Part shown: positions 32,164 through 48,089 of the stretch, one piece after another
Layout of the letters: the number at the start of each line of letters is the position of its first letter
How positions within the stretch are numbered: position 1 is the stretch's first letter
From: Candidatus Lustribacter telmatis
GTDB taxonomy: Bacteria > Vulcanimicrobiota > Vulcanimicrobiia > Vulcanimicrobiales > Vulcanimicrobiaceae
Assembly: GCA_003164045.1 (NCBI GenBank)
Contig: PLRU01000071.1
Span: forward strand, 118,383 to 182,382
Reading direction: 5' to 3'
Length of the DNA stretch: 64,000 nucleotides
Translations under genes and position numbers: made by a program
The notes under the pieces: model-generated
What the model was told of the DNA's origin: nothing
Database searches by the model: none
Seen by the model: only the letters and a program-made list of their open reading frames with translations

Positions 32164-33106
32164 GCTCCTGCGCCGGGAACGTGGTGAACTTGGCGTACTT
32201 CGCGGTGAGGTCGATGCCCGGCTGAACGTTGGCCGGGTCGAGCGACTTGGCGAAATACGTGCGCGGGCTCGCGGCGACTTGCGCCTGATCGACCTTCAGA
32301 TACTTGGCGAGGATCTCGGGACACTTCGCCGGGTTCGCCTGCGCCCAGACGACCGCATCGTGCATCGACTGGGCGAACAGCGCGACCGCCTTCTGATGTT
32401 TCTTCGCCCAATCGTCGGTCGTGAACCAGCCGGCAACGAGAAACGCGTTGGCGATCGCGTCGAACTCCACGGCAACCGTGTGCGCCACTTTCTTAGCCGG
32501 CGTCAGGAACGGTTCGGCAACAAAGGCCGCATCGATGCGGCCGGTTGCGAGCGCCGCCGGCATTTCGGAGAACGGAATCTCGACGAACTTGAGCGTCGTT
32601 GCATCGCCGCCGCCCGCATCGACCCAGGCGCGCACGCCGTATTCGCCGAGCGTGTTGAGGCCGGGACTGCCGATCGTCTTACCGTTGAGGTCGACGCCTT
32701 TGCGCACGTCTTTGCTCGCGCTCATCAGCATGCCGCCGGGCGGTTGCGTTACGTCGAACGCGTTCGCCGCCGCGATGATCGTAAACGGAAGCTTTTTCGC
32801 GTGCGCCGATGCCAGCGTCATTACGGTCGCGTAGCCGATATCGACGGCGTCTGATGCCACCGCCACGGCGATCGCCGCTCCGTACGGGTTGGGCTGCAGT
32901 TCGACGTTGAGCCCCGCCTTGGTCCACAATCCCAACTCTTTGGCATAGAACAACTGCGCGCTCGCCTCGAACGGGATGTACGCGACGCGAATCGTCATGT
33001 CGCTCTGCGCTGCGGCCGGCGCGCCCGTCAGCGGCAGTGCGGCAGCACCTCCCAGCAGCGCGAGAGCGCCGCGGCGGTCGACGGAACGGCAGGAAAGCTT
33101 TTTCAT
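32129..33106 (-). CDS. NMT1/SsuA-type ABC substrate-binding protein
   Basis: A 325-aa exported SBP: signal MKKLSCRSVDRRGALALLGG ending PAAAQ, then TIRVAYIPFEASAQLFYAKELG. It is the closest local relative of the SBP at 8392-9333. The frame continues to 34402, but that part is antisense to the Rieske oxygenase. The chosen ATG (33106) has GTGGGG a few bases upstream. It is divergent from the Rieske oxygenase gene across 57 bases, in which CCATT and AATGG (33113-33129) form a weak inverted repeat. Likely the uptake protein for the oxygenase substrate. Confidence 0.85.
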   Translation of the reverse strand: MKKLSCRSVDRRGALALLGGAAALPLTGAPAAAQSDMTIRVAYIPFEASAQLFYAKELGLWTKAGLNVELQPNPYGAAIAVAVASDAVDIGYATVMTLASAHAKKLPFTIIAAANAFDVTQPPGGMLMSASKDVRKGVDLNGKTIGSPGLNTLGEYGVRAWVDAGGGDATTLKFVEIPFSEMPAALATGRIDAAFVAEPFLTPAKKVAHTVAVEFDAIANAFLVAGWFTTDDWAKKHQKAVALFAQSMHDAVVWAQANPAKCPEILAKYLKVDQAQVAASPRTYFAKSLDPANVQPGIDLTAKYAKFTTFPAQELIYTPPRRKLF

Positions 33107-33163: not shown

Positions 33164-34390
33164 ATGCTGAGTAAAGAAGACAACGAACTGATCACGCGGG
33201 TCGGCCCCGGCACGCGCGGCGGTGCGTTGCTGCGGCGCTACTGGTATCCGGTGCTCAAGGCAGACGCGCTCGAACCGGACGGCGCGCCGAAGAAGGTTCG
33301 CTTGCTCGGCGAGAACTTCGTGGCGTTTCGCAGCGGCGACGGCCGCGTCGGCATGATGGAGGAACTCTGTCCGCACCGGCGCGCGTCGCTCGTGCTCGCG
33401 CGCAACGAGGATTGCGCGCTGCGGTGTCTCTTCCACGGCTGGAAATTCGATCTCGACGGTAAGCTCGTCGAGGCGCCGAGCGAGCCGGCCGACCGCGTTT
33501 CGTTCGTCAACAAAGTGCGCACGCGCAGCGTCGCCGTGCGCGAGAGCAGCAAGCTGATCTGGGCTTACATCGGCCCCGGTGAGCCGCCGCAGTTTCCCGA
33601 CTTCGAGTTCACCGCGCTGCCGCTCGATCACGTGCAGATCGCCGAAGTCCCCGGCCGCTGCAACTGGGTGCAGTTGGCGGAGGGACAACTCGACTCCGCG
33701 CACATCTCGCACTTGCACGCGTCGGCGTCGGCCGGGAACCTGACCCGGCTCTCGCTCGCGGACCGCGCGCCGCTCTTCGACGTCGAGATCACCTCGTGGG
33801 GCATGCACGCTGCGGCAACGCGCACGATCGGCCCCGACGAACGCTACACGCGCGTGACCGAGTTCGTGATGCCGAGCTGGGAGTTCATCCCTCGCCCCAC
33901 CTCGCCGGGCACCGCCGAATATGACGCCATGCCGCGCTTCGTCGTGCACCAAACGCCGGTCGACGATACCAACACGATCGTGTGGTACATCAATTGGCAT
34001 CCGGATCATCCGATCTCGTATGAAGACGCGCGCTGGACCGTATGGAACGACGAATACATCTCCGTGATCGACGAGCCGCTGATGGGTCAGGATCGCGCGA
34101 AGATGAAAGCCGGCCACATGACCGGCGTGAACAACCTGCTCACGGAAGACATGCTCGTTGCCGAGACGATGGGGCCGATCGCCGATCGCACCGGCGAGTA
34201 TCTCGGTTCGAGCGACGCGGCGGTCGCGCGGTTCCGCCGCATATTTATCGAAGCGATTCGCGATGAGGAAGACGGCAACGTGCCGCGCGGGTGTTCGGGC
34301 AACGAACCGTACCGGCGGATCGTCGGCCAGGGCGTGCTGCATCCCGCGCGCGTCGATTGGCGCGACTGCGTGAACGACCTCGTTACATAA
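33164..34390 (+). CDS. Rieske non-haem iron oxygenase (phthalate-dioxygenase-like)
   Basis: A 408-aa oxygenase alpha subunit. The Rieske site is C69-x-H71 (CPHRR) and C88-xx-H91 (CLFHGW). The mononuclear iron site is in NWVQLAEGQLDSAHISHLHAS (given by parts: Asp177, His180, His185). The sequence type is that of phthalate 4,5-dioxygenase and similar single-component alpha subunits that hydroxylate or O-demethylate aromatic acids. ATG at 33164 with GGAGAAG upstream. It is first in the run Rieske / IclR / CMD, the IclR ATG following its TAA with no gap. Reductase not seen nearby. Confidence 0.93.
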   Translation: MLSKEDNELITRVGPGTRGGALLRRYWYPVLKADALEPDGAPKKVRLLGENFVAFRSGDGRVGMMEELCPHRRASLVLARNEDCALRCLFHGWKFDLDGKLVEAPSEPADRVSFVNKVRTRSVAVRESSKLIWAYIGPGEPPQFPDFEFTALPLDHVQIAEVPGRCNWVQLAEGQLDSAHISHLHASASAGNLTRLSLADRAPLFDVEITSWGMHAAATRTIGPDERYTRVTEFVMPSWEFIPRPTSPGTAEYDAMPRFVVHQTPVDDTNTIVWYINWHPDHPISYEDARWTVWNDEYISVIDEPLMGQDRAKMKAGHMTGVNNLLTEDMLVAETMGPIADRTGEYLGSSDAAVARFRRIFIEAIRDEEDGNVPRGCSGNEPYRRIVGQGVLHPARVDWRDCVNDLVT

Positions 34391-35185
34391 ATGAAGTCGC
34401 ACGGGCCGCGGGCGTCGGGCGGATATACGGTCGAGGCCCTCGCCAAGGGTCTGCGCGTGCTCGCGCTTTTCTCCGAACGCCGTTCGTCTATGCGCCTCAC
34501 GGAAATCGTCGCGCTGACCGGTATGCCGATGCCGACCGCTTTTCGTCTCGTCGCCACGCTTGAAGGTGAAGGCTATCTCGAACGCATGCCTGACGGCTCG
34601 GTTCGTCCGGGCGCGGCCGTATTAACGCTGGGATTTGCCGCGTTGCGCGGACTCGATCTCGTGGAAACATCGTCGGTGATCCTCGGCGAACTCTTCCAAA
34701 CGACGCAGCAAACCGTGAATCTCGGCGTGCGCTCGTTCGACCGCGTCGTCTACATCGCACGTCTGCAAAGCGATACCGTCCTGGTCACCGCAAACGTAAC
34801 GGTCGGCTCGACACTGCCGGCGATCGTGACCTCGATGGGCAAAGTGCTTCTCGCCTTCATGCCCGAGGCAGAACTCGCGCAATGCATTACGGCCGCCTCG
34901 TTCGGAGGCGCTTGGGGACCGAACGCGCTGCGCACGATGCCGGCACTCGAGACGGAGCTCGCCCGTGTGCGCGCCGCCGGTTTTGCCGTACAGGATGAAG
35001 AATTAGCATCGGGCTTACGCTCGATCGCCGCGCCCGTGCGCGGAAATGACGGCCGCGTTGTTGCGGCCGTTAACGTGGCGGTTCCCGCCCGGGAGTTTAC
35101 CGTGAACGATCTTCGCAAGCGCGTGCGCGAGCCGCTCCTGGCCGCCTGCGCGCAAATCTCACGCCGCCTCGGAGCGCCGGTATGA
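34391..35185 (+). CDS. IclR-family transcriptional regulator
   Basis: A 264-aa IclR-type regulator: winged HTH at about 14-75 (MRLTEIVALTGMPMPTAFRLVATLEGEGYLER, in parts), then the effector domain with GSTLPAIVTSMGKVLLAFMP and the C-terminal ELASGLRSIAAPVRG, where ligands bind. IclR proteins bind short palindromes and usually regulate catabolic genes next to them. It starts on the base after the Rieske oxygenase stop and is coupled to the CMD gene by ATGA. It is the best candidate to bind the TTTCAC palindromes at 35842 and 40603. Confidence 0.93.
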   Translation: MKSHGPRASGGYTVEALAKGLRVLALFSERRSSMRLTEIVALTGMPMPTAFRLVATLEGEGYLERMPDGSVRPGAAVLTLGFAALRGLDLVETSSVILGELFQTTQQTVNLGVRSFDRVVYIARLQSDTVLVTANVTVGSTLPAIVTSMGKVLLAFMPEAELAQCITAASFGGAWGPNALRTMPALETELARVRAAGFAVQDEELASGLRSIAAPVRGNDGRVVAAVNVAVPAREFTVNDLRKRVREPLLAACAQISRRLGAPV

Positions 35186-35778
35186 AGACGCATGGCCGGT
35201 TGCCCTGGCTCGCGCCGGACGAACTCGATGCCGGCGCGCGGGCACTCTACGACCGCATCGCCGGCGGGCCGCGCGCTCAAGGGCCGCAAGCGTTCTCGCT
35301 AACCGACGAAGCCGGCCGCTTACACGGCCCGTTTAACGCAATGCTCGTCAGTCCCGACGTGGGCTCGGCGCTGCAAGAACTCGGCAGCGCGATCCGCTAT
35401 AAGAGCGGTCTCACGCCGCGCGCGAGAGAGATCGCGATTCTCGAGCTCTCCGTCCTGCGCCGGTCGGTGTTCGAGTGGTACGCGCACGAACGCGTCGGCA
35501 AACAAGCCGGTTTGAGCGATGCGGAAATTACGGCCCTGCGGGACGGCGGTCCGGCACCGACATTCGATGCGACCGAATCGCTCGTGCGCGAACTCGTGCG
35601 CACGCTCGCACGCGAGCGCGATCTCGACGAGAGCGCGTTTGCCGCCGCAGTGAGCGCACTCGGCGAGCGCGTGCTGATGGATCTGATCGCACTCGTCGGC
35701 TACTACGATTTGCTCGCACTGAGCCTGCGCGTTTGGCGCACGCCGTTGCCCGCCGGCGCGGAAGCGCCGTTCACGTAG
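35182..35778 (+). CDS. Carboxymuconolactone decarboxylase family protein
   Basis: A 198-aa protein with the CMD/AhpD fold. The core segment is LTPRAREIAILELSVLRRSVFEWYAHERVGKQAGL, of which FEWYAHERVGKQ is the conserved active-site helix (Glu, His). The CxxC of AhpD peroxidase-type members is absent, so the decarboxylase/lactone-type group is more likely than the disulfide-type group. It acts on ring-cleavage products in the cytoplasm. It is coupled by ATGA to the IclR gene and followed after 85 bases by the TRAP operon. Confidence 0.88.
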   Translation: MKTHGRLPWLAPDELDAGARALYDRIAGGPRAQGPQAFSLTDEAGRLHGPFNAMLVSPDVGSALQELGSAIRYKSGLTPRAREIAILELSVLRRSVFEWYAHERVGKQAGLSDAEITALRDGGPAPTFDATESLVRELVRTLARERDLDESAFAAAVSALGERVLMDLIALVGYYDLLALSLRVWRTPLPAGAEAPFT

Positions 35779-35841
35779 GCACATCTTCGGCGAAGGAGAG
35801 TTTCAGCGACGCGCAAATCACGCGGTAGATCGTAAACTCGC

Positions 35842-35857
35842 TTTCACGATATGAAAG
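35842..35857. promoter_or_regulatory. Palindromic operator before the first TRAP operon
   Basis: The sequence TTTCACGATATGAAAG forms an inverted repeat (TTTCA-N5-TGAAA) ending 6 bases before the dctP start at 35864. Its GAAAG also fits as the ribosome site, so a bound protein would block transcription start or translation. A nearly identical copy lies at 40603. The IclR gene just upstream is the likely binder. Sequence identity is seen; regulator assignment is inference. Confidence 0.6.
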
Positions 35858-35863
35858 TCTTCT

Positions 35864-36889
35864 ATGACGCATCGGATAACCCGCCGCTCGTTTTCCGCGC
35901 TGCTGGCAGCGGCCGCGGTCGCACCACCGCTCGCAGCGCGAGCGGCGGACCCGGTTAAGCTCAAGCTCGCCTTCTTCGCCGACGACGCTGAGATGACGTG
36001 GGTTACCGTCATCAAGCCGTTCGTGGACAACGTGAACCGCGATGCGAAGGGCGCCGTTCAGATCGACGCCTTCCTCAACGGCGCGCTCGGACGCGCGCTA
36101 CCCGATCAGCCGCAGATGGTGCTCGACGGCGTCGCCGACATCGCGTTTTGCATTCCGGGTGTGACGCCGGGGCGCTTCGCCGACAACGGCGTCATGGAGT
36201 TGCCGGGCCTGTTCCGCAATTTGCGCGAGTCCTCGCTCGTCTACACGCGCATGGTTGCCGCGAACCGCCTGCGCGGTTTCGAAAACTACGATGTGATCGG
36301 CGCCATCGGAACGCCGCCGTTCAGCGTGCACTCGAAGACGAAGGTGACGTCGCTGGCGGATTTGCGCGGCTTGCGCGTGCGCACAACCAATGCGACCGAA
36401 GCCCAAACGCTCAAGGAGCTCGGCGCGATTCCGGTGCTGATGCCGGTCAACGAGGTTCCCGAAGCGATCGGACGCGGCACGATCGATGCAGCGACGGTCC
36501 ATCCCGGGCCGCTCTTCGATTTCGGCATCAACAAGGTGACGAAGTACGACTACTTCATCGGCTTCGGCTTCTCGCCGCTCAATCTGCTTATGAACAAGAA
36601 AGTCTTCGACGGACTGCCGAAAGCGGGTCAAGATGCGATCCGCAAATACAGCGGCGAATGGTTCGCGACCACGTACATCAAGGGCTACAGCGTCTATACG
36701 GATTCGCTGATGGCGAAACTCAAGGCCGATACCAGCCGCACGGTCACGTTCCCGACACCGGCCGACGATACCGCGGCGCAAGCGGCGTTCAAGCCCGTCT
36801 TCGAAGCATGGCTCGCCAAGGATCCGCGCAACCCGCAACTGCTTAAAGACGTGCAGGCCGAGATCGCCCGGGTTCGCGCGAGCCATTAG
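35864..36889 (+). CDS. TRAP transporter substrate-binding protein (DctP type)
   Basis: A 341-aa periplasmic protein, first gene of a dctP-dctQ-dctM operon. Twin-Arg-like/Sec signal (MTHRITRRSFSALLAAAAVAPPLAARAA). The DctP core LADLRGLRVRTTNATEAQTLKELGAIPVLMP contains the conserved arginine that binds the solute carboxylate. It also shows the MNKKVFDGLP and WFATTYIKGY segments. It delivers an organic acid to the QM membrane part, driven by the Na+ gradient. It lies under the palindromic operator at 35842-35857, so it is probably induced by a pathway acid. Confidence 0.93.
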   Translation: MTHRITRRSFSALLAAAAVAPPLAARAADPVKLKLAFFADDAEMTWVTVIKPFVDNVNRDAKGAVQIDAFLNGALGRALPDQPQMVLDGVADIAFCIPGVTPGRFADNGVMELPGLFRNLRESSLVYTRMVAANRLRGFENYDVIGAIGTPPFSVHSKTKVTSLADLRGLRVRTTNATEAQTLKELGAIPVLMPVNEVPEAIGRGTIDAATVHPGPLFDFGINKVTKYDYFIGFGFSPLNLLMNKKVFDGLPKAGQDAIRKYSGEWFATTYIKGYSVYTDSLMAKLKADTSRTVTFPTPADDTAAQAAFKPVFEAWLAKDPRNPQLLKDVQAEIARVRASH

Positions 36890-37385
36890 CAGGGTCGATC
36901 GCGTCGCGACGATCGTCGCACAAGCCTGCGCCGTCGTCGGCCTCGTGCTCCTGGTGGCGTTTGCGGTCGGCACGCTGGGCGACGGATTGCTGCGCCGCTT
37001 CGCCGGCCGCCCGATCGAAGCCGTGCGCGACGTCGGCGGCCTCGTGGTCGCCATCGCCGTCGTGTGTTGCATGCCGCTGGCCCTGCTGCAGCGCGCCAAT
37101 ATCACGATCAAGTTCGTGCAAGCATTTTTCGGCGCACGCGCGGGCAGTTATTTCGATGCGGTCGCGTCGGTCGCGATCGAAATCGTGCTCGGGCTCATCG
37201 CGCGGCAGTTCTTCATCTACGCCTCGGCGCTCGCGCGTACCGGCGACACGACGACGATGCTCTCGATCCGGACCGCACCATTTTGGTTCGTCGTTTCGGC
37301 GGTGCTGTGGATCGCGGTCGCCACGCAGGCGGTGGTCGTCGTGCAACAGATGCGAACGGCGTTCGCTCCGCGCGCGCCAACGTGA
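36885..37385 (+). CDS. TRAP transporter small permease (DctQ type), start uncertain
   Basis: A four-helix membrane protein. The hydrophobic segment that should be TM1 (ATIVAQACAVVGLVLLVAF) starts well before the first ordinary start codon in frame, GTG at 36945. That GTG would cut TM1 in half. No ATG, GTG or TTG lies further upstream in this frame. An ATT at 36885 overlaps the dctP stop (ATTAG), which fits the coupling in this operon, so I place the start there, giving 166 aa. Starts at ATT are rare but known (infC in E. coli). The frame ends in an overlap with dctM (GTGA). If 36945 is used, the product is 146 aa. Confidence 0.75.
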   Translation: MSRVDRVATIVAQACAVVGLVLLVAFAVGTLGDGLLRRFAGRPIEAVRDVGGLVVAIAVVCCMPLALLQRANITIKFVQAFFGARAGSYFDAVASVAIEIVLGLIARQFFIYASALARTGDTTTMLSIRTAPFWFVVSAVLWIAVATQAVVVVQQMRTAFAPRAPT

Positions 37386-38686
37386 GCCCGCTCGAAATCG
37401 GCGGGCTCGGCCTGGCCGGACTCTTCATCCTCATTCTCTGCCAGGTACCGATCGCGTTCGCGATGATCATCGTCGGCGTCATCGGCTTCGGCCTCGAGCA
37501 AGGCTGGTCGCCGGCGCTGACGTTTCTCGCCAGTCAGCCGGCGGGTTCGCTGGCCAGCATCGATCTGGCCACGCTGCCGCTGTTCCTTTTGATGGGAACG
37601 TTCGCGAACGCCGCCGGCTTCTCGGAAGATCTCTACAACGCGGCGGCCGCCTTCGTCGGTCACAAACGCGGCGGCTTGGCGTATGCGACGATCGGCGGTT
37701 GCGCCGCGTTTGGCGCGGTCTGCGGCTCGACCACCGCAACGGCCGCGACGTTCGCCAAGGTCGCGTTGCCGCAAATGTTGCGGCGCGGCTATTCGCCCGC
37801 ATTTTCCACCGGCAGCATCGCCGGCGGCGGCACGCTCAAGTCACTCATCCCGCCTTCGCTCGTGATGATTCTCTACGCGATCATTGCCAAGGTGTTCATC
37901 TTCCAGCTCTTCGTCGCGGCGATCTTTCCGGCGCTGCTCACGATCGGCTTGAACATGCTCGCGATCGCCGTTATGGTGAGGCTGAATCCTGCGGCGGCGC
38001 CGACGAGCGCGCGCCTGCCCTGGAACGAACGCTGGCGCGAAGCGCGCACCGCAACGCCCGCGATCGTGTTGATCGTCGCGGTGTTCGGCGGATTGTACAG
38101 CGGTATTTTCACCGTGAACGAAGCGGCGTCGGTGGCCGCCGTTTTGGCGCTCGCCTTCGCCATCGTGCGCGGCCGCTTGACGTGGACGAGCCTCATCGAC
38201 GGCCTGCGTTCGTCGGCCGGGGCGGCCGTGATGCTCTACATGATCCTCATCGGCGCGTCGATTTTCACCTACTTCATCACCGTCGCGCGGCTCCCCGACA
38301 CGCTGCTCGCAGCGATCGGTTCGATGCACCTCGCGCCGCTGGCGATCATCGCGCTCTTACTCGTCGCGTACATCATCCTCGGCACGGTGTTCGAAGAAAC
38401 ATCGGCAATCGTCGTCACGCTGCCGTTCGTGTTGCCAATCATATTGCACGCCGGCTACGATCCGGTCTGGTGGGGCATCATCATGGTCGTACAAGTGGAA
38501 CTGGCGATGATCCACCCGCCGATCGGTGTGATCGTATTCTTGCTGCACGGACTTGCGCCCGATATCCCGATGAAGACGATCTATCGCGGCGTCGTCCCGT
38601 TTATCATTGCCGATCTGTGCGTCTTGATTTTACTGACGGTTTTTCCCGACATCGCACTTTGGTTACCGCGAAAGCTGGGCATGTGA
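37382..38686 (+). CDS. TRAP transporter large permease (DctM type)
   Basis: A 434-aa membrane protein with about 11-12 helices, the Na+/organic-acid transport subunit. Marks: PLFLLMGTFANAAGFSEDLY, AFGAVCGSTTATAATFAKVALP, and AGGGTLKSLIPPS, all typical DctM (GSxxATaa, sodium-site-like loop). The second half has VFEETSAIVVTLPFVLPI and IHPPIGVIVFLLHGLAP. The GTG start overlaps the DctQ stop (GTGA). The last gene of the operon runs into the Vgb-like gene (GTGA again). Confidence 0.94.
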   Translation: MSPLEIGGLGLAGLFILILCQVPIAFAMIIVGVIGFGLEQGWSPALTFLASQPAGSLASIDLATLPLFLLMGTFANAAGFSEDLYNAAAAFVGHKRGGLAYATIGGCAAFGAVCGSTTATAATFAKVALPQMLRRGYSPAFSTGSIAGGGTLKSLIPPSLVMILYAIIAKVFIFQLFVAAIFPALLTIGLNMLAIAVMVRLNPAAAPTSARLPWNERWREARTATPAIVLIVAVFGGLYSGIFTVNEAASVAAVLALAFAIVRGRLTWTSLIDGLRSSAGAAVMLYMILIGASIFTYFITVARLPDTLLAAIGSMHLAPLAIIALLLVAYIILGTVFEETSAIVVTLPFVLPIILHAGYDPVWWGIIMVVQVELAMIHPPIGVIVFLLHGLAPDIPMKTIYRGVVPFIIADLCVLILLTVFPDIALWLPRKLGM

Positions 38687-39582
38687 TCGCAACGTTCCGC
38701 GAATACCGTATTCCCTCGGCGGATAGCAAGCCGTACATCGTCGCCTACGGTCCCGATGGAAATATCTGGTTCTGTTCGAGCGGAACCGGAAAGATCGGGC
38801 GGCTTTCATTGCGCGATGACCGGATCACCGAGTTCGCGTTACCGGATGCGCGTTCGCAGCCGATCGGTATCGTCGGCGGCTCCGATGGGAACCTGTGGTT
38901 TACCGAATATGCCGGCCATCGGGTCGGACGGATCACGCCCGACGGCGAGATCACCGAGTTTGCTTTGCCGACGCCGAATGCCGGACCGAACGGCGTCACG
39001 CTCGGACCGGACGGCAACGTATGGTTTGCCGAAACCGATATCGACCGCTTCGCCAAGATCACCCCCGCCGGCGACGTGACCGAATACCACCTCGGCATTA
39101 CGCCGCGCAGCAAACCGCTCGCACCCACGACCGGGCCCGGCGCCGTGTGGTTCAGCGAAGCCGACGGCAACAATATCGGCCGCATCACGCCCGATGGGCG
39201 CATCGTCGAGTATCCGATCCCGACGCCCGATAGCGGACCCCGGGCGATCGTGCAGGGACCGGACGGGGCGTTTTGGTTCGTGCAATCCACGGCCAACGCG
39301 ATCGGCCGGATCGACTTTGAGGGCAACGTGACATCGTTTCGGATTCCGCGCGAGCATACGAGCCCGCGCGGCATCGCCCTCACGCCGCACGGCGACTTTC
39401 TGATCACGGAGAACTTCACCAACATCATCGCGCGCATGACGGCCGACGGAACGGTTGCGGATGAGTATCCAATTCCGACGGCCGGCAGCGGGCCACGCGC
39501 GTTGCTCGTGACACCCGGCGGACGCGCGTTCTTCAGCCAGCACGACGCCGGCCAAATCGGCGAGATCATCGTCGCGCGATAA
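38683..39582 (+). CDS. Virginiamycin-B-lyase-like beta-propeller protein
   Basis: A 299-aa protein built from repeats of about 42 residues, each with a GPDGNxWFxE-like segment (GPDGNIWFCSS, SDGNLWFTEYAGH, GPDGNVWFAETD, PGAVWFSEAD, GPDGAFWFVQ), the seven-bladed propeller of Vgb and related lyases. No signal peptide. In this operon it is more likely to open a lactone or cyclic ester of the pathway than to inactivate an antibiotic. The catalytic His-Glu-His set of Vgb cannot be placed with confidence. GTG start overlapping dctM (GTGA). The next gene overlaps by one base (TAATG). Confidence 0.8.
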   Translation: MIATFREYRIPSADSKPYIVAYGPDGNIWFCSSGTGKIGRLSLRDDRITEFALPDARSQPIGIVGGSDGNLWFTEYAGHRVGRITPDGEITEFALPTPNAGPNGVTLGPDGNVWFAETDIDRFAKITPAGDVTEYHLGITPRSKPLAPTTGPGAVWFSEADGNNIGRITPDGRIVEYPIPTPDSGPRAIVQGPDGAFWFVQSTANAIGRIDFEGNVTSFRIPREHTSPRGIALTPHGDFLITENFTNIIARMTADGTVADEYPIPTAGSGPRALLVTPGGRAFFSQHDAGQIGEIIVAR

Positions 39583-40529
39583 TGCCGCGCCCGGTCATCC
39601 TCATCTACCATCCGGAAGTCGCCGAGATCTGGACCGGCGTGCGCGATGCGAACATCGATGCCGAGTTTCTGCTGGCCGCGACCCTCGAAGAAGCACGCGC
39701 AGAATCGGCCCGGGCTGACGCCCTCGTCGCGCTCGATCCGGAAATCACCGAAGATCTCGTTACCGGCCCGCATTTGCGCTGGGTGCAAGCACTAACATCC
39801 GGCATGGAACGCGTGCTCACGTTCCCCGGCGTCGGCAAGGGCGTCATGCTCACCTCGATGCGTGGCGCCCACGGGCCGCAAGTTTCCGAACTCGCGTTTT
39901 TGCTGATGCTCGCCGTGTCGCGACGCTTTCCGGCCATGGTCGATAACCAGCGCCGCCGCACGTGGGACCATTGGCGCCAGCCGCCGCTCTACAAACGAAC
40001 GGTCGCCATCATCGGCGTGGGAGCGATCGCCTCGGCATTTGCGCCGCGCTGCAAAGCCTTCGAGATGAACGTCATCGGCGTCGACGACCGCGTGACCGAG
40101 GCGGCGTTCGTCGACCGTATCTATCCGCCGGCGCAATTGCACGTCGCGCTTGCCGCAGCGGACTTCGTCGTGCTCCTCGTGCCGCACGTTCCATCGACGC
40201 ATCACCTGATCGATGCGCCCGCGCTCGCGGCGATGCAGCCGCAGGCGTATCTGATCAACGTCGCTCGCGGCGCCGTCGTCGACGAACCGGCGCTGATCGC
40301 GGCGCTGCAAAACGGAACGATTGCCGGTGCCGGACTCGACGTGTTCGCGAGCGAGCCGTTGCCGCCGGAGAGCCCGCTCTGGACAATGGAAAATGTTGCG
40401 ATCACGCCGCACGTCGGCGGCAACAGCACGACCTACATTCAGCAAATGAACGAGACGCTGGTGCACAATCTGCGCGCGTACGTCGAGAACCGTCATGGCG
40501 ATCTGCGCAACCGGATCGAACGCGCGTAG
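39582..40529 (+). CDS. D-2-hydroxyacid dehydrogenase family protein
   Basis: A 315-aa NAD(P)-dependent 2-hydroxyacid dehydrogenase. Catalytic set Arg229 (NVARG), Glu258 (SEPL), His277 (TPHVGG). The nucleotide site is G145-V-G147-A-I-A150, so the last Gly of GxGxxG is Ala, a variation tolerated in some members but worth noting. It reduces a 2-oxo acid or oxidises the hydroxy acid in the cytoplasm. It begins in the Vgb-like gene stop and ends the first TRAP transcription unit; the next unit has its own operator. Confidence 0.88.
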   Translation: MPRPVILIYHPEVAEIWTGVRDANIDAEFLLAATLEEARAESARADALVALDPEITEDLVTGPHLRWVQALTSGMERVLTFPGVGKGVMLTSMRGAHGPQVSELAFLLMLAVSRRFPAMVDNQRRRTWDHWRQPPLYKRTVAIIGVGAIASAFAPRCKAFEMNVIGVDDRVTEAAFVDRIYPPAQLHVALAAADFVVLLVPHVPSTHHLIDAPALAAMQPQAYLINVARGAVVDEPALIAALQNGTIAGAGLDVFASEPLPPESPLWTMENVAITPHVGGNSTTYIQQMNETLVHNLRAYVENRHGDLRNRIERA

Positions 40530-40602
40530 TACGCAACCGGCGACCGCCGCCGGCCGCAGGTCCCGAAACATCCTTGCCGGAATTATAGAAATGGAAAGTT
40601 AA

Positions 40603-40618
40603 TTTCACGATGTGAAAG
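40603..40618. promoter_or_regulatory. Palindromic operator before the SDR-Rieske-TRAP2 operon
   Basis: TTTCACGATGTGAAAG: perfect TTTCAC-GAT-GTGAAA inverted repeat, 15 of 16 bases identical to the copy at 35842. It ends 9 bases before the ATG of the SDR gene. A TATAGA-like box lies at 40585-40590, which would put the palindrome just downstream of a start point, a repressing position. The operon it precedes holds SDR, SDR, FAH, Rieske, DctP, DctQM and Rieske genes. Confidence 0.62.
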
Positions 40619-40627
40619 TGAGTGGGG

Positions 40628-41416
40628 ATGGACGTATCGGTCGCGCCGAATGCTTCAGCAGGCGCTTGGCTCGGGCTCGATAACGCGGCAGTGCTGATCG
40701 CGGGCGCCGGCGGCATCGGCCGCGGGCTGATCGAGGGCTTCGCCGACGTCGGAGCCCGGGTGGTGACCGTCGACGGCGATGCCGGCCGCGTTCGCGCCGC
40801 CGTCGAGGAACTCGAACTCGAACGCCGCGGAGGGCACGGGCTGGTCGGCGATCTGCGCGATCCCGACCGCGCACGGAAGATCGTCGCCGAAACCCATGAG
40901 CGGCTCGGCCGGCTCGACGTGTTCATCCACGCCGTCGGCATGAACGATCGTCGCCCGATCCTCGACTATACCGACGAGGATTGGCGCACGTTCATCGACG
41001 TGAACCTCAATAGTGCGTTCTGGCTCGGCCAGGCGGCCGGCAAGATCATGTGCGCACAGGGCAGCGGCCGCCAGATCTATTTCTCATCGGTCGCAGGTTC
41101 GCTCGCACATAAACACCACGGTCCCTATGCAGCCAGCAAAGGTGCCATCAACCAGATGATGCGCGTCATGGCGAACGAGTGGGCGAACTCGGGCGTCACG
41201 GTCAACGCGCTCGCGCCGGGTTACATCGAAACGCCGCTCACGGCCGAACATCTCAAGAAACCCGGCGTGCGGCCCGCACTCGAAGCGCTGGTGCCGGCCG
41301 GCCGGCTCGGCGTCGTCGAGGATGTCGTCGGCCCCGCGCTCTTCCTTGCCTCACGCCACGCAGCATTCGTCACCGGACATATCATGTACGTTGACGGCGG
41401 CCGCACGCTCATTTAG
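40628..41416 (+). CDS. SDR oxidoreductase
   Basis: A 262-aa short-chain dehydrogenase: cofactor site AGAGGIGRG near residue 25, catalytic Tyr in GPYAASKGA and the late GYIETPLTAEHL, HIMYVDGG ending. Reduces or oxidises a hydroxyl/ketone, NAD(P) dependent. ATG at 40628; a GTG at 40622 is also in frame. It is the first gene after the operator palindrome, so its expression is the most direct reporter of that regulator. It is followed after 10 bases by a second SDR of the same family. Confidence 0.88.
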   Translation: MDVSVAPNASAGAWLGLDNAAVLIAGAGGIGRGLIEGFADVGARVVTVDGDAGRVRAAVEELELERRGGHGLVGDLRDPDRARKIVAETHERLGRLDVFIHAVGMNDRRPILDYTDEDWRTFIDVNLNSAFWLGQAAGKIMCAQGSGRQIYFSSVAGSLAHKHHGPYAASKGAINQMMRVMANEWANSGVTVNALAPGYIETPLTAEHLKKPGVRPALEALVPAGRLGVVEDVVGPALFLASRHAAFVTGHIMYVDGGRTLI

Positions 41417-41426
41417 GAACGTTTAC

Positions 41427-42215
41427 ATGGCAACGGTTTCGCGCGTTTTTCCGCGCTTCGAAAACAAATGGATGATGGTTACCGGCGCCGGCACCGGCTT
41501 CGGCCGCACGCTTGCAACGCGCGCCGCCGCCGAGGGCGCGAACGTCGTCGTCCACTACAACAATTCCAAAGCCGGCGCCGATGAAACGGCAAAGGCCGTG
41601 CGTGCGCTCGGCCGTGAAGCCTTCATCGTGCAGGGCGACATCAAGAGCTGGGACCAGATCAAAGCGATGATCGACGCCGCGTGGAAACACAGCGGCGGGA
41701 TCGACGTGCTGATAAACAACGTAGGCGACATCGCAACCGATCAAGTGGATTGGAAAGAGATCGATGAGAAGATCATCGATCGCGTGCTCGCCGTCGACAT
41801 CAAGGGCACGATGCTGATGATCCACGAGATGGGCACCCGGATGCTCGAGCGGGGCAAGGGCAACATCGTCAACATCGCCTCGACGGTGGTCGTGCGCGGC
41901 AGCCCGCGCGCGCCGCAGTATGCCGCCGGAAAATACGGGATCATCGGTTTGACGAAATCCTACGCCTACGCGTTCGCGCCGACGGTGCGCGTCAACGCCT
42001 TCGGTCCGGGCTTCATGGAAACCGAAGCGATCCTCACCCGGCACGATTGGAACAACGGACGCAAGGAACGCGTCCTCGCACAAACCCCGATGGGGCGCGT
42101 ACCCGCCCCCGAGGAGCTCGCTGCCGCGGCGCTGTTCCTCGCTACCGACGATGCGGCGCACATGACGGGCAACTTCATCATGTGCGACGGCGGCTACAGC
42201 ATGATCGGCGCTTAG
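41427..42215 (+). CDS. SDR oxidoreductase
   Basis: A 262-aa short-chain dehydrogenase with TGAGTGFGRT, DVLINNVGD (NNxG), QYAAGKYG (Tyr-xxx-Lys) and NFIMCDGGYSM. The sequence class is that of 3-oxoacyl reductase-like enzymes. AGGAAC lies about 8 bases upstream of the ATG. Two successive SDR genes suggest two oxidation steps on the same carbon chain or ring (for example diol to ketone), which is inference. The FAH-family gene follows 12 bases later. Confidence 0.88.
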   Translation: MATVSRVFPRFENKWMMVTGAGTGFGRTLATRAAAEGANVVVHYNNSKAGADETAKAVRALGREAFIVQGDIKSWDQIKAMIDAAWKHSGGIDVLINNVGDIATDQVDWKEIDEKIIDRVLAVDIKGTMLMIHEMGTRMLERGKGNIVNIASTVVVRGSPRAPQYAAGKYGIIGLTKSYAYAFAPTVRVNAFGPGFMETEAILTRHDWNNGRKERVLAQTPMGRVPAPEELAAAALFLATDDAAHMTGNFIMCDGGYSMIGA

Positions 42216-42227
42216 GAGCACAACAGC

Positions 42228-43106
42228 ATGAAACTGGTTACGTTCAATGAGGGCCGCGTCGGGCGGATCCGCGACGGCAAAACGATCGAGGAGCTCGACG
42301 TTCCCTCGATGCGCGAATATTTCGAAGGCGGCGAGAGCGCGAAGCCCACGGGCAAGACGTTTCTGCTCGACGACGTGCGCCTGCGCGCGCCGATCGTGCC
42401 GAAGAAGTTCTTCCACACCGCGGGCAACTATCAGGAACATCACGAGGAATCGCTGCGCGTCGGCTGGTCGCACCCGGTGCGGCCGTGGATCGTCTTCTTC
42501 CAGAACGTCGATGCGATCATCGGCCCGGGCGATGAAATCGTCTACCCCGAACACTTGACGAGCGAACTCGATTACGAGCTCGAACTCGCCGTCATCATCA
42601 AGAAGGCCGGCAAGTTCTTTACCGCCGAGGAAGCGCACGAGTACATCGGCGGCTTCATCGTGTTCAACGACATCACCGCGCGCGACATTCAACGCCGCGA
42701 AATGCGCTCGGGCGTGTTCTCATTCTGCAAGGCGATCGACACCTTCGTGCCGATCGGTCCGTGGATCGTTACCCCCGACGAAATCCCCGATCCGCATAAT
42801 CTCAACGTCGAACTGCGCGTCAACGGCGAAAAGCGCCAGAGCTCGAATACGAGCCACATGTCGTACTCGATCGAAGAGATCATCGCGCACTACTCGCCAC
42901 TCGGCTATAGCGCCGGCGACATTCTCTCCACCGGCACCGTCTCGGGCGTCGCCGGCTTCAGCCCCGATGCTGCATCGCTCTACATGAAACCCGGCGATGT
43001 CGTCGAGGCGGAAATCGAGAAAGTCGGGATCTTGCGCAATCCGATCGTGTCGTGGCAACACGCGCACGGCGTGCCGGCCCCGGCCAAAGTTGAGTGGGGC
43101 GCGTAA
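42228..43106 (+). CDS. Fumarylacetoacetate hydrolase family protein
   Basis: A 292-aa FAH-family enzyme. The metal site is Glu117-x-Glu119 (DYELELAVII) with Asp148 (FNDITARDIQ), and the late loop is ILSTGTVSGVAGF. The group hydrolyses C-C bonds of acylpyruvates or isomerises and decarboxylates ring-cleavage products. AGGAG lies 9 bases upstream. It is followed by the Rieske oxygenase with 6 bases between. It marks the lower end of an aromatic or keto-acid degradation path. Confidence 0.92.
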   Translation: MKLVTFNEGRVGRIRDGKTIEELDVPSMREYFEGGESAKPTGKTFLLDDVRLRAPIVPKKFFHTAGNYQEHHEESLRVGWSHPVRPWIVFFQNVDAIIGPGDEIVYPEHLTSELDYELELAVIIKKAGKFFTAEEAHEYIGGFIVFNDITARDIQRREMRSGVFSFCKAIDTFVPIGPWIVTPDEIPDPHNLNVELRVNGEKRQSSNTSHMSYSIEEIIAHYSPLGYSAGDILSTGTVSGVAGFSPDAASLYMKPGDVVEAEIEKVGILRNPIVSWQHAHGVPAPAKVEWGA

Positions 43107-43112
43107 TACCCC

Positions 43113-44210
43113 ATGTATCCGTTCGGGCCGGGTCTCGATTACGTCCGTAACGGCTGGTACGCGGCTGGCTGGTCGGGCGACTTCGGCGAGGCTCTGCTCA
43201 CGCGGACGTTCCTTGACGAACCGGTCGTGCTGTATCGAACGAGCGCCGGCGAAGCCGTTGCGCTCGCCGACCGCTGCGCGCACCGCGCGTATCCGCTCTC
43301 GCTCGGCACGCGCCTGGGCGATACGGTGCGCTGCGGCTATCACGGCTTCACCTACGACGGGCACGGCCGCTGCGTCGCAATCCCCTCGCAGCAGCACGTT
43401 CCGGCGGCCTACGGGGTACGGCGCTACCCCACGCTCGAACGCGGCGGCGTCGTGTGGATATGGATGGGCGAACCGAACGCAGCCGATGAGGCCGCCCTGC
43501 CCGATCTGCACGAGCTGGGCCTCACGGATCCGAATTTCCACGTCGACGTCGGCGGTGTCAACACGTGGCGCAATCGCTACCAGCTCATAAACGAGAACCT
43601 GCTCGACCTCTCACATATCGAGTTCTTGCACCTCGGCACGATCGGCACGCCGAACGTGGCGGCCTCGCCGGTCGTCACGACCGTGCACCCGCACATGATC
43701 GAAGCGACGCGTACGATCCACGGCGACCAAGCGACGCCGCTCCACAAGCGCGCGCTCGGCATCGATGGTTCGATGGACCGCACGACGCGCTCGCTCTTCT
43801 TTCCACCCGGTGCGCACGTCACGCAAGTGCTGATGGTCGCGCCCGGCTCGAACGCACGCTTCGGCCAACCCGGCTACTTCGGCGAGTTCAAACAGGCGCA
43901 CCTGATCACGCCGTCGACCGCGATTGAGACCTACTATTTCTGGTCGATCGCGCGCACCTCACACAAAGACGCGCAGACCAGTGCGTTTATGCTCGACGCA
44001 TTTCGCACCGTCTTCGCACAAGACGGCGTCGCACTCGAGGCGCAAGAGCGCTCGCTTCAGCGCGATCCGCACTTTCACGAACTCAGTTGTAAGGCCGACG
44101 AGGCCGCGCTAAAAGCGCGGCGTCTCTTAGCCGACGCGATGACCGCGGAAAACACCGTTCCGCGACCGCTTCACGCCGTTTCCGCATCTTCTTCCCGGAG
44201 GCCCCAATGA
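43113..44210 (+). CDS. Rieske non-haem iron oxygenase (VanA-like)
   Basis: A 365-aa oxygenase: Rieske site C55-x-H57 (CAHRAYPLS) and C74-xx-H77 (CGYHGF), iron site in NENLLDLSHIEFLH (Asp165, His168, His173). The NENLLDLSH motif marks the vanillate/toluenesulfonate demethylase-like group. It probably oxidises an O-methyl, methyl or ring position on an aromatic acid. A Rieske reductase is not visible in the window. It is coupled to the dctP gene by ATGA. It is paralogous to the one at 47052. Confidence 0.93.
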   Translation: MYPFGPGLDYVRNGWYAAGWSGDFGEALLTRTFLDEPVVLYRTSAGEAVALADRCAHRAYPLSLGTRLGDTVRCGYHGFTYDGHGRCVAIPSQQHVPAAYGVRRYPTLERGGVVWIWMGEPNAADEAALPDLHELGLTDPNFHVDVGGVNTWRNRYQLINENLLDLSHIEFLHLGTIGTPNVAASPVVTTVHPHMIEATRTIHGDQATPLHKRALGIDGSMDRTTRSLFFPPGAHVTQVLMVAPGSNARFGQPGYFGEFKQAHLITPSTAIETYYFWSIARTSHKDAQTSAFMLDAFRTVFAQDGVALEAQERSLQRDPHFHELSCKADEAALKARRLLADAMTAENTVPRPLHAVSASSSRRPQ

Positions 44211-45232
44211 CCGATTACCCCCGTTCCACGATGAATCGCCGCCGCTTCGCGTCCGGTGCGGCCGCCGCGTTCGCCGGCGTTGCCATCGTGCGCGCACCCG
44301 CGCGCGCGGCGCAGTTCAATTTCAAAGTCGGCTATCCGCTGCCGCAAGGTCACCCCCAGCACATTCGCATGGTCGAGGCGGCAGCGCGAATATTGACCTC
44401 TACGAATGGGCGCTTGCAGCTCCAGCTTTTTCCGAACAGCGAACTCGGGAGCGACGATTCGTCGGTCGCTCAATTACGTTCCGGTGCGATGGAGATGTAT
44501 ATCGGCAGCGACGGCGTGCTCTCGACCATCGTCATGGATGCCGCGATCGAAGGCGTCGGATTCGCCTTTAAGTCTCAGCCGCAGGCGCTCGGGGCAATCG
44601 ATGGGCCACTCGGCGATCTGGTGCGCAAGCAGATGGTCGCCAAGGGGATCTACCCGTTTGCGACGTGCTGGGTGAACGGATTCCGGCAAATCGTCACCAG
44701 CACGAAACCGATCAAGACCGTCGACGACCTCGCCGGCCTCAAAGTGCGCACGCCCGGCGCCAAGCTGTATGTCGATATGTTCAAGACGCTCGGAGCGGCG
44801 CCGACACCGGTCAATGTCGCCGACGTCTATACGGCGCTGCAAACGAAGGTGATCGATTCGGTAGAAGTCCCGATGGCTATCATCGAGGCGTCCAAGTGGT
44901 ACGAACCGACGAAATACTTGAGCATCACCAATCACATTTGGGGCAACCTCTTTGCCGTCGTGAACCTCGACGCGTGGAAGTCGCTGCCGCCCGATATTGC
45001 GGCGATCCTCAATCGAGAAATCGATCGCGCCGGGATGCTCGAGCGCGAGGATATGCTGCACGCGGACGCTGCGCTACGGACGAAGCTGCAAGGACAGGGG
45101 CTGACGGTGAACGAGGTCGCAGACCTCGCGCCGTTCCGCGCCAAGCTGAGGCCGTTTTATACCGACATGAAATCGGCGTTTTCACCGGAAGCGTGGGCGT
45201 TACTCGAAAAAACGACCGGCCGCCTGACCTGA
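44207..45232 (+). CDS. TRAP transporter substrate-binding protein (DctP type)
   Basis: A 341-aa binding protein, second of the window. Signal MNRRRFASGAAAAFAGVAIV (after an eight-residue extension; an in-frame ATG at 44231 is the alternative start). The DctP core is DDLAGLKVRTPGAKLYVDMF and the Arg of KVR is the expected carboxylate binder. Otherwise NGRLQLQLFPNSELGSDDSS fits the family. It overlaps the Rieske stop (ATGA) and precedes the fused DctQM gene by 2 bases. It likely imports the acid used by the flanking VanA-like oxygenases. Confidence 0.93.
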   Translation: MTDYPRSTMNRRRFASGAAAAFAGVAIVRAPARAAQFNFKVGYPLPQGHPQHIRMVEAAARILTSTNGRLQLQLFPNSELGSDDSSVAQLRSGAMEMYIGSDGVLSTIVMDAAIEGVGFAFKSQPQALGAIDGPLGDLVRKQMVAKGIYPFATCWVNGFRQIVTSTKPIKTVDDLAGLKVRTPGAKLYVDMFKTLGAAPTPVNVADVYTALQTKVIDSVEVPMAIIEASKWYEPTKYLSITNHIWGNLFAVVNLDAWKSLPPDIAAILNREIDRAGMLEREDMLHADAALRTKLQGQGLTVNEVADLAPFRAKLRPFYTDMKSAFSPEAWALLEKTTGRLT

Positions 45233-45234
45233 GG

Positions 45235-47055
45235 ATGCGCAAGCAGGTCGACCGGCTGATCCGCGCCGTCGTCGAGCCGCTCTGCGCGCTTTTAATCGTC
45301 GCCGAGGTGATCATCCTTGCCGCGGGGGTTCTGTTCCGCTACGGTTTTCACAACGCGCTCATTTGGAGCGATGAGCTCTCCGGCGTGCTGCTGCTCTGGC
45401 TCGCGATGCTCGGCGCCGTCGTCGCGTACCGGCGGCGGGAGCACATCCGGATCACGGCGCTCGAGCGCGTGGTGTCGCCCGCTACCGGCGCGCTGCTCGA
45501 TGCCGTCTCCTCGGTTGTCGTCGCGCTGTTTTGTCTTGAAATGCTGCCGGCTTCGTACCGGCTGCTCGTCCAGGAGTCATCACAAGTCACCGCCGCACTG
45601 AGCATTCCCCGCTCGTGGATCGTCGCGGGCATCGTTCTGCCGATGGGCCTAATCTTCGTGCTCGCGGTGCTGCGCCTACTCGAGAGCAAACCGCGTGATG
45701 CCATGCTCGCGACGCTCGGCGGCGTCGTTCTCTCGCTAGCGGCCTACCTCGGCCGCGACGCGTTTGCCGCGCTCGGCAATCTCAACTTGCTCGTTTTCTT
45801 CGTCTTTTTCGTCGGCATCGTGGTGGCGATCGGCGTCCCGATCGCGTTTGCGTTCGGCACCGGAACGCTGAGTTATCTCGCGCTCACCACACACGTTCCG
45901 CTCAGCACCGTTGCCGATCGCATGAACGAAGGTATCGCCAACATCATCTTGCTCGCGATTCCCCTTTTCGTCTTGCTGGGGTTGTTGGTCGACTGTTCGG
46001 GGATGGCTCGGCGGCTCGTCGACGCGATCGCCTCGCTGGTGGGTCACGTCCGCGGGGGCCTCAACATCGTCCTCGTCGTCACGATGTATCTGGTCTCCGG
46101 CATTTCCGGTTCGAAGACCGCCGATATGGCCGCCATCGCGCCCGTCTTGTTTCCCGAGATGGAACGGCGCGGACAAGACCGCGGCGAGATGATCGCCCTC
46201 CTCTCGACGTCGGCGGCAATGGCCGAGACGATTCCGCCTAGCATCGTGTTGATCATCGTCGGCACGGTCGTCGGCCTCTCGATCAAGGATCTGTTCACGG
46301 CCGGACTGCTACCCGCGGCCGTCGCCTCGATCGCGCTCGTCATCGTCGCACTCGCGCGATCGCGTCGAACCGAACTCGCCGAGCGCGCAACGTTGCAACG
46401 GATCGCGCGCGCCTTTTTCGTGGCGATCCCGGGCCTTGCGCTGCCGCTGATCATCCGCACCTTCGTCATCGGCGGAATCGCGACGACGACCGAGGTCAGC
46501 ACGGTCGGCATCGTGTACACGCTGCTCGTCGGCATCTTCATTTACCGCGAACTCGATTGGCGGAGACTGTACCCGATGCTGCGCGAAACGGCCTCGCTCA
46601 CCGGCGCCATCATGTTGATCATCGCCACTGCAACGGCCATGGCATGGGCGCTCACGCAGTCCGGCTTCGCCCAGCAACTCGCCGCGACGCTGGCCACGGC
46701 GCCGGGCGGACGAGCGGGCTTCCTTGCGGCGTCCGTCGTCGCATTCGTCGTCCTCGGCTCAGTTCTGGAAGGTATTCCGGCGATGGTGCTCTTTGGGCCA
46801 CTGCTGTTTCCCATCGCGATCCAACTCGGGATCAACCCGATCCATTATGCAATCGTCGCCGTCCTGGCAATGGGCATCGGCCTTTTCGCGCCACCGCTTG
46901 GCGTCGGGTATTATGCCGCGTGCGCGATCGGGAAGGCCTCCGCCGACGACGCTGCCCGTCACGTCATCCCGTACATCCTTGCGCTGACGGTCGCGCTCGT
47001 CATCATCGCAGCGTTTCCGCAGATCTCACTCATCCTCATCGGGGCAAAATCATGA
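45235..47055 (+). CDS. TRAP transporter fused small and large permease (DctQM)
   Basis: A 606-aa protein with a DctQ part (about residues 1-150: IRAVVEPLCALLIVAEVI, RYGFHNALIWSDELSG) joined to a DctM part (about 180-600: FGTGTLSYLAL, MYLVSGISGSKTADMAAIAP, MAETIPPSIVL). Fused QM permeases are known, for example SiaQM. The start at 45235 has TGAGG right before it. The 5' extension of the frame to 44665 lies inside dctP. It ends in an overlap with the Rieske gene (ATGA). The other TRAP system in this window has separate Q and M. Confidence 0.93.
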   Translation: MRKQVDRLIRAVVEPLCALLIVAEVIILAAGVLFRYGFHNALIWSDELSGVLLLWLAMLGAVVAYRRREHIRITALERVVSPATGALLDAVSSVVVALFCLEMLPASYRLLVQESSQVTAALSIPRSWIVAGIVLPMGLIFVLAVLRLLESKPRDAMLATLGGVVLSLAAYLGRDAFAALGNLNLLVFFVFFVGIVVAIGVPIAFAFGTGTLSYLALTTHVPLSTVADRMNEGIANIILLAIPLFVLLGLLVDCSGMARRLVDAIASLVGHVRGGLNIVLVVTMYLVSGISGSKTADMAAIAPVLFPEMERRGQDRGEMIALLSTSAAMAETIPPSIVLIIVGTVVGLSIKDLFTAGLLPAAVASIALVIVALARSRRTELAERATLQRIARAFFVAIPGLALPLIIRTFVIGGIATTTEVSTVGIVYTLLVGIFIYRELDWRRLYPMLRETASLTGAIMLIIATATAMAWALTQSGFAQQLAATLATAPGGRAGFLAASVVAFVVLGSVLEGIPAMVLFGPLLFPIAIQLGINPIHYAIVAVLAMGIGLFAPPLGVGYYAACAIGKASADDAARHVIPYILALTVALVIIAAFPQISLILIGAKS

Positions 47056-48089
47056 TCGCACCATATCTGCTCGACACGTGGTACGCGGCTATGTGGTCCG
47101 CCGATCTTCCGGCGGGAGCGCTCGTTCCGCGCACGATCCTCGATGAGCCGCTCGTCTTTTGGCGCACGAGCGGCGGCGAGGTCGCGGTCCTCGAAGATCG
47201 GTGCCCGCATCGCTTCGCTCCCTTGAGTATGGGACGCATACTCGGCGACCATCTGCAATGCGGATATCACGGCCTCGAGTTCGACGTTAACGGCGCGTGT
47301 GTGAACAACCCGCATCCCAATCGCGCCGTGCCGCCGGGAACGTTCGCGCGAACGCATCCGGCGCTAGAACGCCACTCGATCGTTTGGATATGGATGGGCG
47401 ATAGCCAACCCGACACGAGCACACTTCCGGACTACGGGCTGATCGATACGGCGCCGGCCGATCAGGTCAGCAAGCGCGACTACTTGCTCATGGCGGCAAA
47501 CTACGAACTCATCGCCGACAATTTACTCGATCTCAGCCACGCATCGTATTTGCACGCCGGACTGTTGGGCAATGACGCGATGGTCGACACGCGCACGGAC
47601 GTGGAGCGTCAAGGAAACACGCTCTGGGTCTCCCGCTTCACGCCGGACGTCCCGGTACCGCAACTCTACGATCTCATGTTCCGGCAGGACGGACGCAACG
47701 TCGACATTTGGACCCGCATCCGGTGGAACGCACCGGGTTGTCTGTTGAACGACACGGGCGCCTGCGCGCCCAACACCGATCGGAGCACCGGGACCGGTCT
47801 CTACGGCATTCATCTCCTCACGCCGGAAACCGCGACAACGACGCACTATCATTTCTGTGCGGTGCGCCAAAACACGGTGCAGCGAGACCCCGCCGCCGAC
47901 GAACATATCCGTGGCCAGCTCTCCGAACTTCGCCATCGAGCTTTTGAAGAACAAGATCGCGCGATGATCGAGGCGCAACAACGCAACATCTCACGCAGCA
48001 ACGGCGACTTGCGTCCTGCCCCGCTCAGCGTCGACGCGGGCATCGTTCGCTACCACCGTATTATCGACGAGCTGCGATTACCGGCCTAG
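47052..48089 (+). CDS. Rieske non-haem iron oxygenase (VanA-like)
   Basis: A 345-aa oxygenase: Rieske site C51-x-H53 (CPHRFAPLS), C70-xx-H73 (CGYHGLEFD), iron site IADNLLDLSHASYLHAG with Asp160, His163 and His168. It is of the vanillate O-demethylase oxygenase type, a second such enzyme in the operon. A dedicated reductase is not visible. It is the last gene of the operon and overlaps the convergent gene at 48086 by 4 bases. Confidence 0.93.
   Translation: MIAPYLLDTWYAAMWSADLPAGALVPRTILDEPLVFWRTSGGEVAVLEDRCPHRFAPLSMGRILGDHLQCGYHGLEFDVNGACVNNPHPNRAVPPGTFARTHPALERHSIVWIWMGDSQPDTSTLPDYGLIDTAPADQVSKRDYLLMAANYELIADNLLDLSHASYLHAGLLGNDAMVDTRTDVERQGNTLWVSRFTPDVPVPQLYDLMFRQDGRNVDIWTRIRWNAPGCLLNDTGACAPNTDRSTGTGLYGIHLLTPETATTTHYHFCAVRQNTVQRDPAADEHIRGQLSELRHRAFEEQDRAMIEAQQRNISRSNGDLRPAPLSVDAGIVRYHRIIDELRLPA

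Follow-up and report, generated by a model that had tools for sequence, protein, structure and literature searches.

The window, a stretch of 64,000 nucleotides of Candidatus Lustribacter telmatis (contig PLRU01000071.1, positions 118,383 to 182,382), carries a catabolic gene cluster with a regulator of the IclR family and two palindromes that, judging from their sequence, are very probably docking sites for this protein. All genes lie on the plus strand in the order Rieske oxygenase, IclR, carboxymuconolactone decarboxylase family protein (CMD), operator 1, a first tripartite ATP-independent periplasmic transporter (TRAP-1, DctP/Q/M), a Virginiamycin B lyase (Vgb)-like protein, 2-hydroxyacid dehydrogenase, operator 2, two short-chain dehydrogenases (SDR1 and SDR2), fumarylacetoacetate hydrolase family protein (FAH), Rieske oxygenase, DctP2 and DctQM2 of a second transporter (TRAP-2) and a last Rieske oxygenase. 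The palindromes, TTTCACGATATGAAAG before dctP1 and TTTCACGATGTGAAAG before SDR1, are 16-mers that differ at a single base. They end 6 and 9 bases before the respective ATG, with their centres 15 and 18 bp from it, and are spaced 4,761 bp apart. An earlier note on this DNA had reported the two 16-mers, their one-base difference, both gaps and a distance of 4.7 kb, all of which proved accurate. Both start codons are credible, because SDR1 is conserved from residue 1 in G001, which is the one further genome of this genus among those searched, and DctP1 opens with a twin-arginine-like signal. The sites are located in AT-rich gaps with 49% and 54% GC compared with 65% for the window.

Table 1. Positions in the window of the putative operators and of the genes around them.
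Feature	Position	Strand	Comment
Rieske oxygenase (Rieske + LigXa_C)	33164..34390	+	IclR ATG directly after its stop codon
IclR-family regulator, 264 aa (HTH_IclR + IclR_C), proposed repressor at both operators	34391..35185	+	domain matches, orthologues
CMD	35182..35778	+	
Third box of operator 1 (TAAA, one mismatch to GAAA), N5 before TTTC	35833..35836	+	
Operator 1 (putative), group-1 palindrome TTTC-N7-GAAA before TRAP-1 operon	35842..35857	+	pattern searches; one other exact TTTCACGATRTGAAA in genome
TRAP solute-binding protein DctP1, twin-arginine-like signal; first gene after operator 1	35864..36889	+	
TRAP small membrane subunit DctQ1	36883..37385	+	open frame without fixed start; named by position
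TRAP large membrane subunit DctM1	37382..38686	+	named from sequence and position
Virginiamycin B lyase-like beta-propeller protein	38683..39582	+	
D-2-hydroxyacid dehydrogenase family protein; last gene of operator-1 operon	39582..40529	+	
Third box of operator 2, GAAA	40594..40597	+	
Operator 2 (putative), palindrome before SDR/FAH/Rieske/TRAP-2 operon	40603..40618	+	counterpart in G001 at C77:204797
SDR1; first gene after operator 2	40628..41416	+	
SDR2	41427..42215	+	
FAH	42228..43106	+	
Rieske oxygenase (Rieske + VanA_C)	43113..44210	+	
TRAP solute-binding protein DctP2	44207..45232	+	
Fused TRAP membrane subunits DctQM2	45232..47055	+	named from sequence
Rieske oxygenase 3; last gene of operator-2 operon	47052..48089	+	named from sequence

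The palindrome is rare. Within the window no further match to the 16-mer occurs at up to two mismatches, and at up to three mismatches there are three matches against 0.33 expected. Genome-wide counts rest on pattern searches of the 4.99 Mb assembly. TTTCACGATRTGAAA matched exactly at these two sites only, and the looser pattern TTTCA-N5-TGAAA added a single copy to them (three in all), with one copy of a reversed-pattern control. Since the control occurs once, one stray copy per genome is at chance level, but two within 4.8 kb, both immediately before gene starts, are not. The stray copy (G000:C7:103084-103098; L008 1501-1515) is probably due to chance and lies about 9 bp 5' of a WD40-like open reading frame, away from related genes. 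Other matches to the palindrome are within genes or beside unrelated genes, so the IclR regulon appears to be limited to this locus. Across 198 genomes, TTTCAC-N3-GTGAAA gives scattered single matches.

Binding sites of IclR proteins have been divided into group 1 (KTYC-N7-GRAM) and group 2 (GRAA-N5/6-TTYC), which are combined in the three-box sites predicted for 32 groups (Suvorova and Gelfand 2021, PMC8222616). With TTTC-N7-GAAA close to a gene start, both sites in the window follow the odd palindrome of group 1. The earlier note had likened them to the GAAA/TTTC palindromes of KdgR. This likeness does not hold for the main palindrome: KdgR and Escherichia coli IclR belong to the same family and their operators use the same half-site letters, but in the reverse, group-2 arrangement GAAA...TTTC. 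At both sites there is in addition a half-site box in register that the note had overlooked, TAAA at 35833 and GAAA at 40594. It supplies the group-2 partner exactly at site 2 and with one mismatch at site 1, and is present in G001. GAAA-N5-TTTC-N7-GAAA has its sole exact genome match at site 2. On their letters, the window sites are group 1 (WTT-11-AAW), with an additional outer box that forms the group-2 pair, and have their centres at -15 and -18. The family prefers a centre 22 nt 5' of the start and places tandem sites 18-22 nt apart (PMC8222616); the closeness of our sites to the usual -22 supports reading them as IclR operators.

Compared with the published WTT-11-AAW motif (WTTYCRYW3RYGRAAW; PMC8222616), the sites share the TTTC-N7-GAAA core, the 15-17 bp odd palindrome and the position near a gene start and beside the regulator gene, whereas they have G at one of the three central W positions and at the outer 3' base. 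With the three-box sites of PcaU, PobR and HmgR (PMC8222616) they have in common a group-1 and a group-2 pair that share one box at the published spacings. However, the boxes of those sites are GTTCG/CGAAC instead of TTTC/GAAA and their regulators activate, where we predict repression, and the third box of site 1 carries its one mismatch.

The regulator itself has the domain architecture of its family (HTH_IclR plus IclR_C in ~250 aa), with 61 bits to PF09339 and 130 bits to PF01614 over 264 aa. By sequence it matches solved structures of the IclR type, among the nearest a Pca regulon regulator (8eju). Its best NCBIfam match is PcaR/PcaU/PobR (TIGR02431) with 184.4 bits, below the curated cut-off of 284.75, so this is its nearest named group but not one to which it belongs. 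The operator of that group, GTNCG-N5-6-CGNAC, also departs from the TTTCA-N5-TGAAA found here.

G001 encodes an IclR orthologue (76% identity) and, right after it, SDR1, SDR2, FAH, a shortened Rieske protein, DctP2, DctQM2 and Rieske 3, with most genes 82-93% identical to the window operon. Here the palindrome reads TTTCACATGCTGAAA before iclR (42 bp ahead of the iclR ATG at C77:203561) and TTTCATTGTATGAAA before SDR1, and these are the only two TTTCA-N5-TGAAA copies in 35 kb; the remaining two palindrome copies in this genome are inside unrelated coding regions. Between the SDR1 promoters of the window and G001 the palindrome centre has changed and both half-sites are kept, which points to selection on the half-sites. 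The shortened Rieske gene (C77 ~207293-207770, L086/L087) matches its counterpart at 43113-44210 over the first 85 residues, after which an internal deletion and a frame change join the C-terminal part. Either a pseudogene or a fault in the assembly may explain this.

A weight matrix built from four sites only, the two of the window and the two of G001, was then applied to ten distant loci (13-19 kb scanned each) that encode an IclR 51-54% identical to ours adjoining CMD, SDR2 and FAH. One is from a metagenome-assembled genome recorded as Actinomycetes and the other nine from relatives of that genome; as these IclRs are 70-97% identical among themselves, the loci are not ten independent tests. 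The top match fell at the start of iclR in all ten, typically as TTTCACACYATGAAAGC, which column-permuted palindromic matrices achieved in none of 500 trials. The best remaining match was in the SDR/CMD promoter region in nine. There the sites are in tandem with 20 bp spacing, and a degenerate three-box pattern, which occurs exactly twice in the window and once in 35 kb of G001, is found once at the SDR-side promoter in 8/10 loci. In L107 to L115 and L061 the iclR start (ATG AAA G) forms the right half of the palindrome and is directly preceded by a -10-like element, suggesting that iclR is autoregulated and transcribed without a leader in these distant relatives. Altogether the palindrome accompanies this IclR orthologue in 12/12 loci, in differing gene orders. 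The recognition helix PMPTAFR is identical in the 12 orthologues, as expected if all of them read one site. The earlier note had assigned the sites to this IclR by proximity; the comparison of loci now argues for the same protein.

The distant SDR-side promoters also bear on the sign of regulation. A TTGAC...TAGATT pair (TTACAT in L061) stands just before the boxes. With the promoter elements ahead of them the boxes would be at about +1, and a protein bound there would sit over the transcription start; transcription in the window is inferred from these relatives to start at the sites too. The earlier note had the palindromes overlap the ribosome-site region. We read this overlap rather as one with the transcription start, since the distant SDR promoters have their ribosome site apart from the boxes. 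That the geometry fits a repressor, as the note had suggested, agrees with our reading. In the proposed mechanism an IclR dimer or tetramer would bind GAAA-N5-TTTC-N7-GAAA lying over the transcription start and block the TRAP-1/2-hydroxyacid dehydrogenase and SDR/FAH/Rieske/TRAP-2 operons together. IclR would be released by a compound of the pathway, either its substrate or an intermediate and probably an aromatic or similar organic acid, and uptake and breakdown would then be induced together. Based on the sequence comparisons, we consider it likely, with good confidence, that the IclR encoded at 34391-35185 binds both three-box sites and represses both operons jointly until a pathway metabolite releases it. 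The sequence itself establishes the sites, how rare they are, their three boxes and their conservation alongside this IclR in 12 loci. Physical binding, repression over activation, the effector and the joint response of both operons are the parts of this account that we infer.

Several observations weigh against this account. Permuted matrices hit the SDR promoter in 9/10 loci in 17 of 500 trials; part of that signal is therefore due to the AT-richness of promoters. The right half-site before the distant iclR genes (ATGAAAG) doubles as their first codons, leaving only the left half without coding constraint, and the degenerate three-box pattern was composed after the sites had been seen. A scan with consensus promoters yielded no sigma-70-like promoter at either window site. 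Moreover, the PcaR/PcaU/PobR group, to which the 184-bit NCBIfam match leads, contains activators.

This last point, together with the Pca regulon regulator among the nearest solved structures and the existence of activators among IclR proteins, favors a different role for the same protein at the same sites: an activator (or both activator and repressor) like PcaU and PobR, which would recruit polymerase when the inducer is bound. We regard this as unlikely, though it is the alternative to be taken most seriously. The sites end only a few bases before the start codons, the distant SDR sites come after TTGAC...TAGATT, a position at which bound protein would obstruct polymerase instead of recruiting it, and the cut-off of the activator-containing group is not reached. 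It is very improbable that another regulator encoded elsewhere binds the palindromes and that the nearness of iclR is incidental. Several IclR relatives are encoded in the genome and motifs of different regulators can overlap, but the motif tracks this orthologue and is at or before iclR itself in 11 relatives. IclR homologues at ~40% identity (G099, G101) show no such motif near iclR, so it is specific to the closer orthologues. Fainter still is the chance that the palindromes work at the RNA level, as hairpins covering the ribosome site, and not as operators in the DNA. Each could form a stem of 6-7 bp beside the start codon, but their folds do not surpass those of shuffled sequence (z -0.77 and -0.34), one G001 copy is 42 bp upstream of the iclR ATG, the distant SDR boxes precede a separate ribosome site and the three-box spacing fits IclR DNA sites. 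Chance, or a recent functionless copy of one promoter into the other, is the least credible explanation: a one-base difference within 5 kb would suit it, but the flanking sequences differ, site 2 diverged in G001 with its half-sites kept, and duplication may explain the origin of operator 1 but not the persistence of the motif in 12 loci.

Under joint repression by IclR, the extent of the regulon differs in part from that proposed before. A single regulon of TRAP uptake, SDRs, FAH and Rieske oxygenases stands insofar as operators precede both operons, but no such operator was found before the first Rieske gene, which shares an operon with iclR. Autoregulation seems to have been lost or changed in the window genome, because no operator was found before the iclR-carrying operon, whereas relatives have one at iclR. 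Divergent from this operon is the gene of an ABC-transporter-type substrate-binding protein (32129-33106), relatives of which are also encoded at several places in G000 and G001. Among the 147 other relatives searched, G001 included, DctP1 has no close homologue. As the TRAP-1 operon is absent from relatives it probably joined the regulon later, and the block looks as if it had been inserted between iclR and the SDR operon, bringing along or acquiring the same operator. From this a wider history can be drawn, for which we see about even chances. An undescribed IclR orthologue group would govern an undescribed SDR-FAH-CMD core common to two distant lineages; in the window genome an extra TRAP-1/Vgb-like/2-hydroxyacid dehydrogenase module for uptake and oxidation would have come under this control by gaining a three-box operator, and the regulator would have moved to another operon, with loss of its own operator.

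The TRAP binding proteins match many solved structures, from which no substrate could be named. For FAH the nearest match was 2,4-didehydro-3-deoxy-L-rhamnonate hydrolase, an assignment we rejected at 154 bits against a cut-off of 500. An alpha-L-rhamnosidase gene is found beside the SDR/FAH/FAH block of one distant IclR orthologue (L061 2477-5140), which may hint at a substrate related to rhamnose or at a plant glycoside.

A search of the literature for this combination of genes returned nothing directly relevant. IclR proteins usually control themselves and one or two adjacent operons, mostly for aromatic compounds (PMC8222616). A close parallel in organization is PheR of Sphingobium, an IclR-family repressor of phenanthrene uptake and catabolism (PMC13273656). 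PheR likewise lies beside a catabolic operon and is reported to control uptake together with breakdown; it differs in its GCAACG-core motif, in the enzymes and in having been shown experimentally.

Overall, the proposed IclR operator pair is well supported, but as a bacterial gene switch it would be of an ordinary kind, though from a bacterium that has been little studied. It would provide a concrete regulon for this lineage, in which two TRAP transporters, SDRs, an FAH-fold enzyme and Rieske oxygenases are tied to one signal, and a clear case of a transport operon taken into an IclR regulon that already existed. The regulon would also help to identify the substrate, as the releasing compound is likely a metabolite of the pathway.

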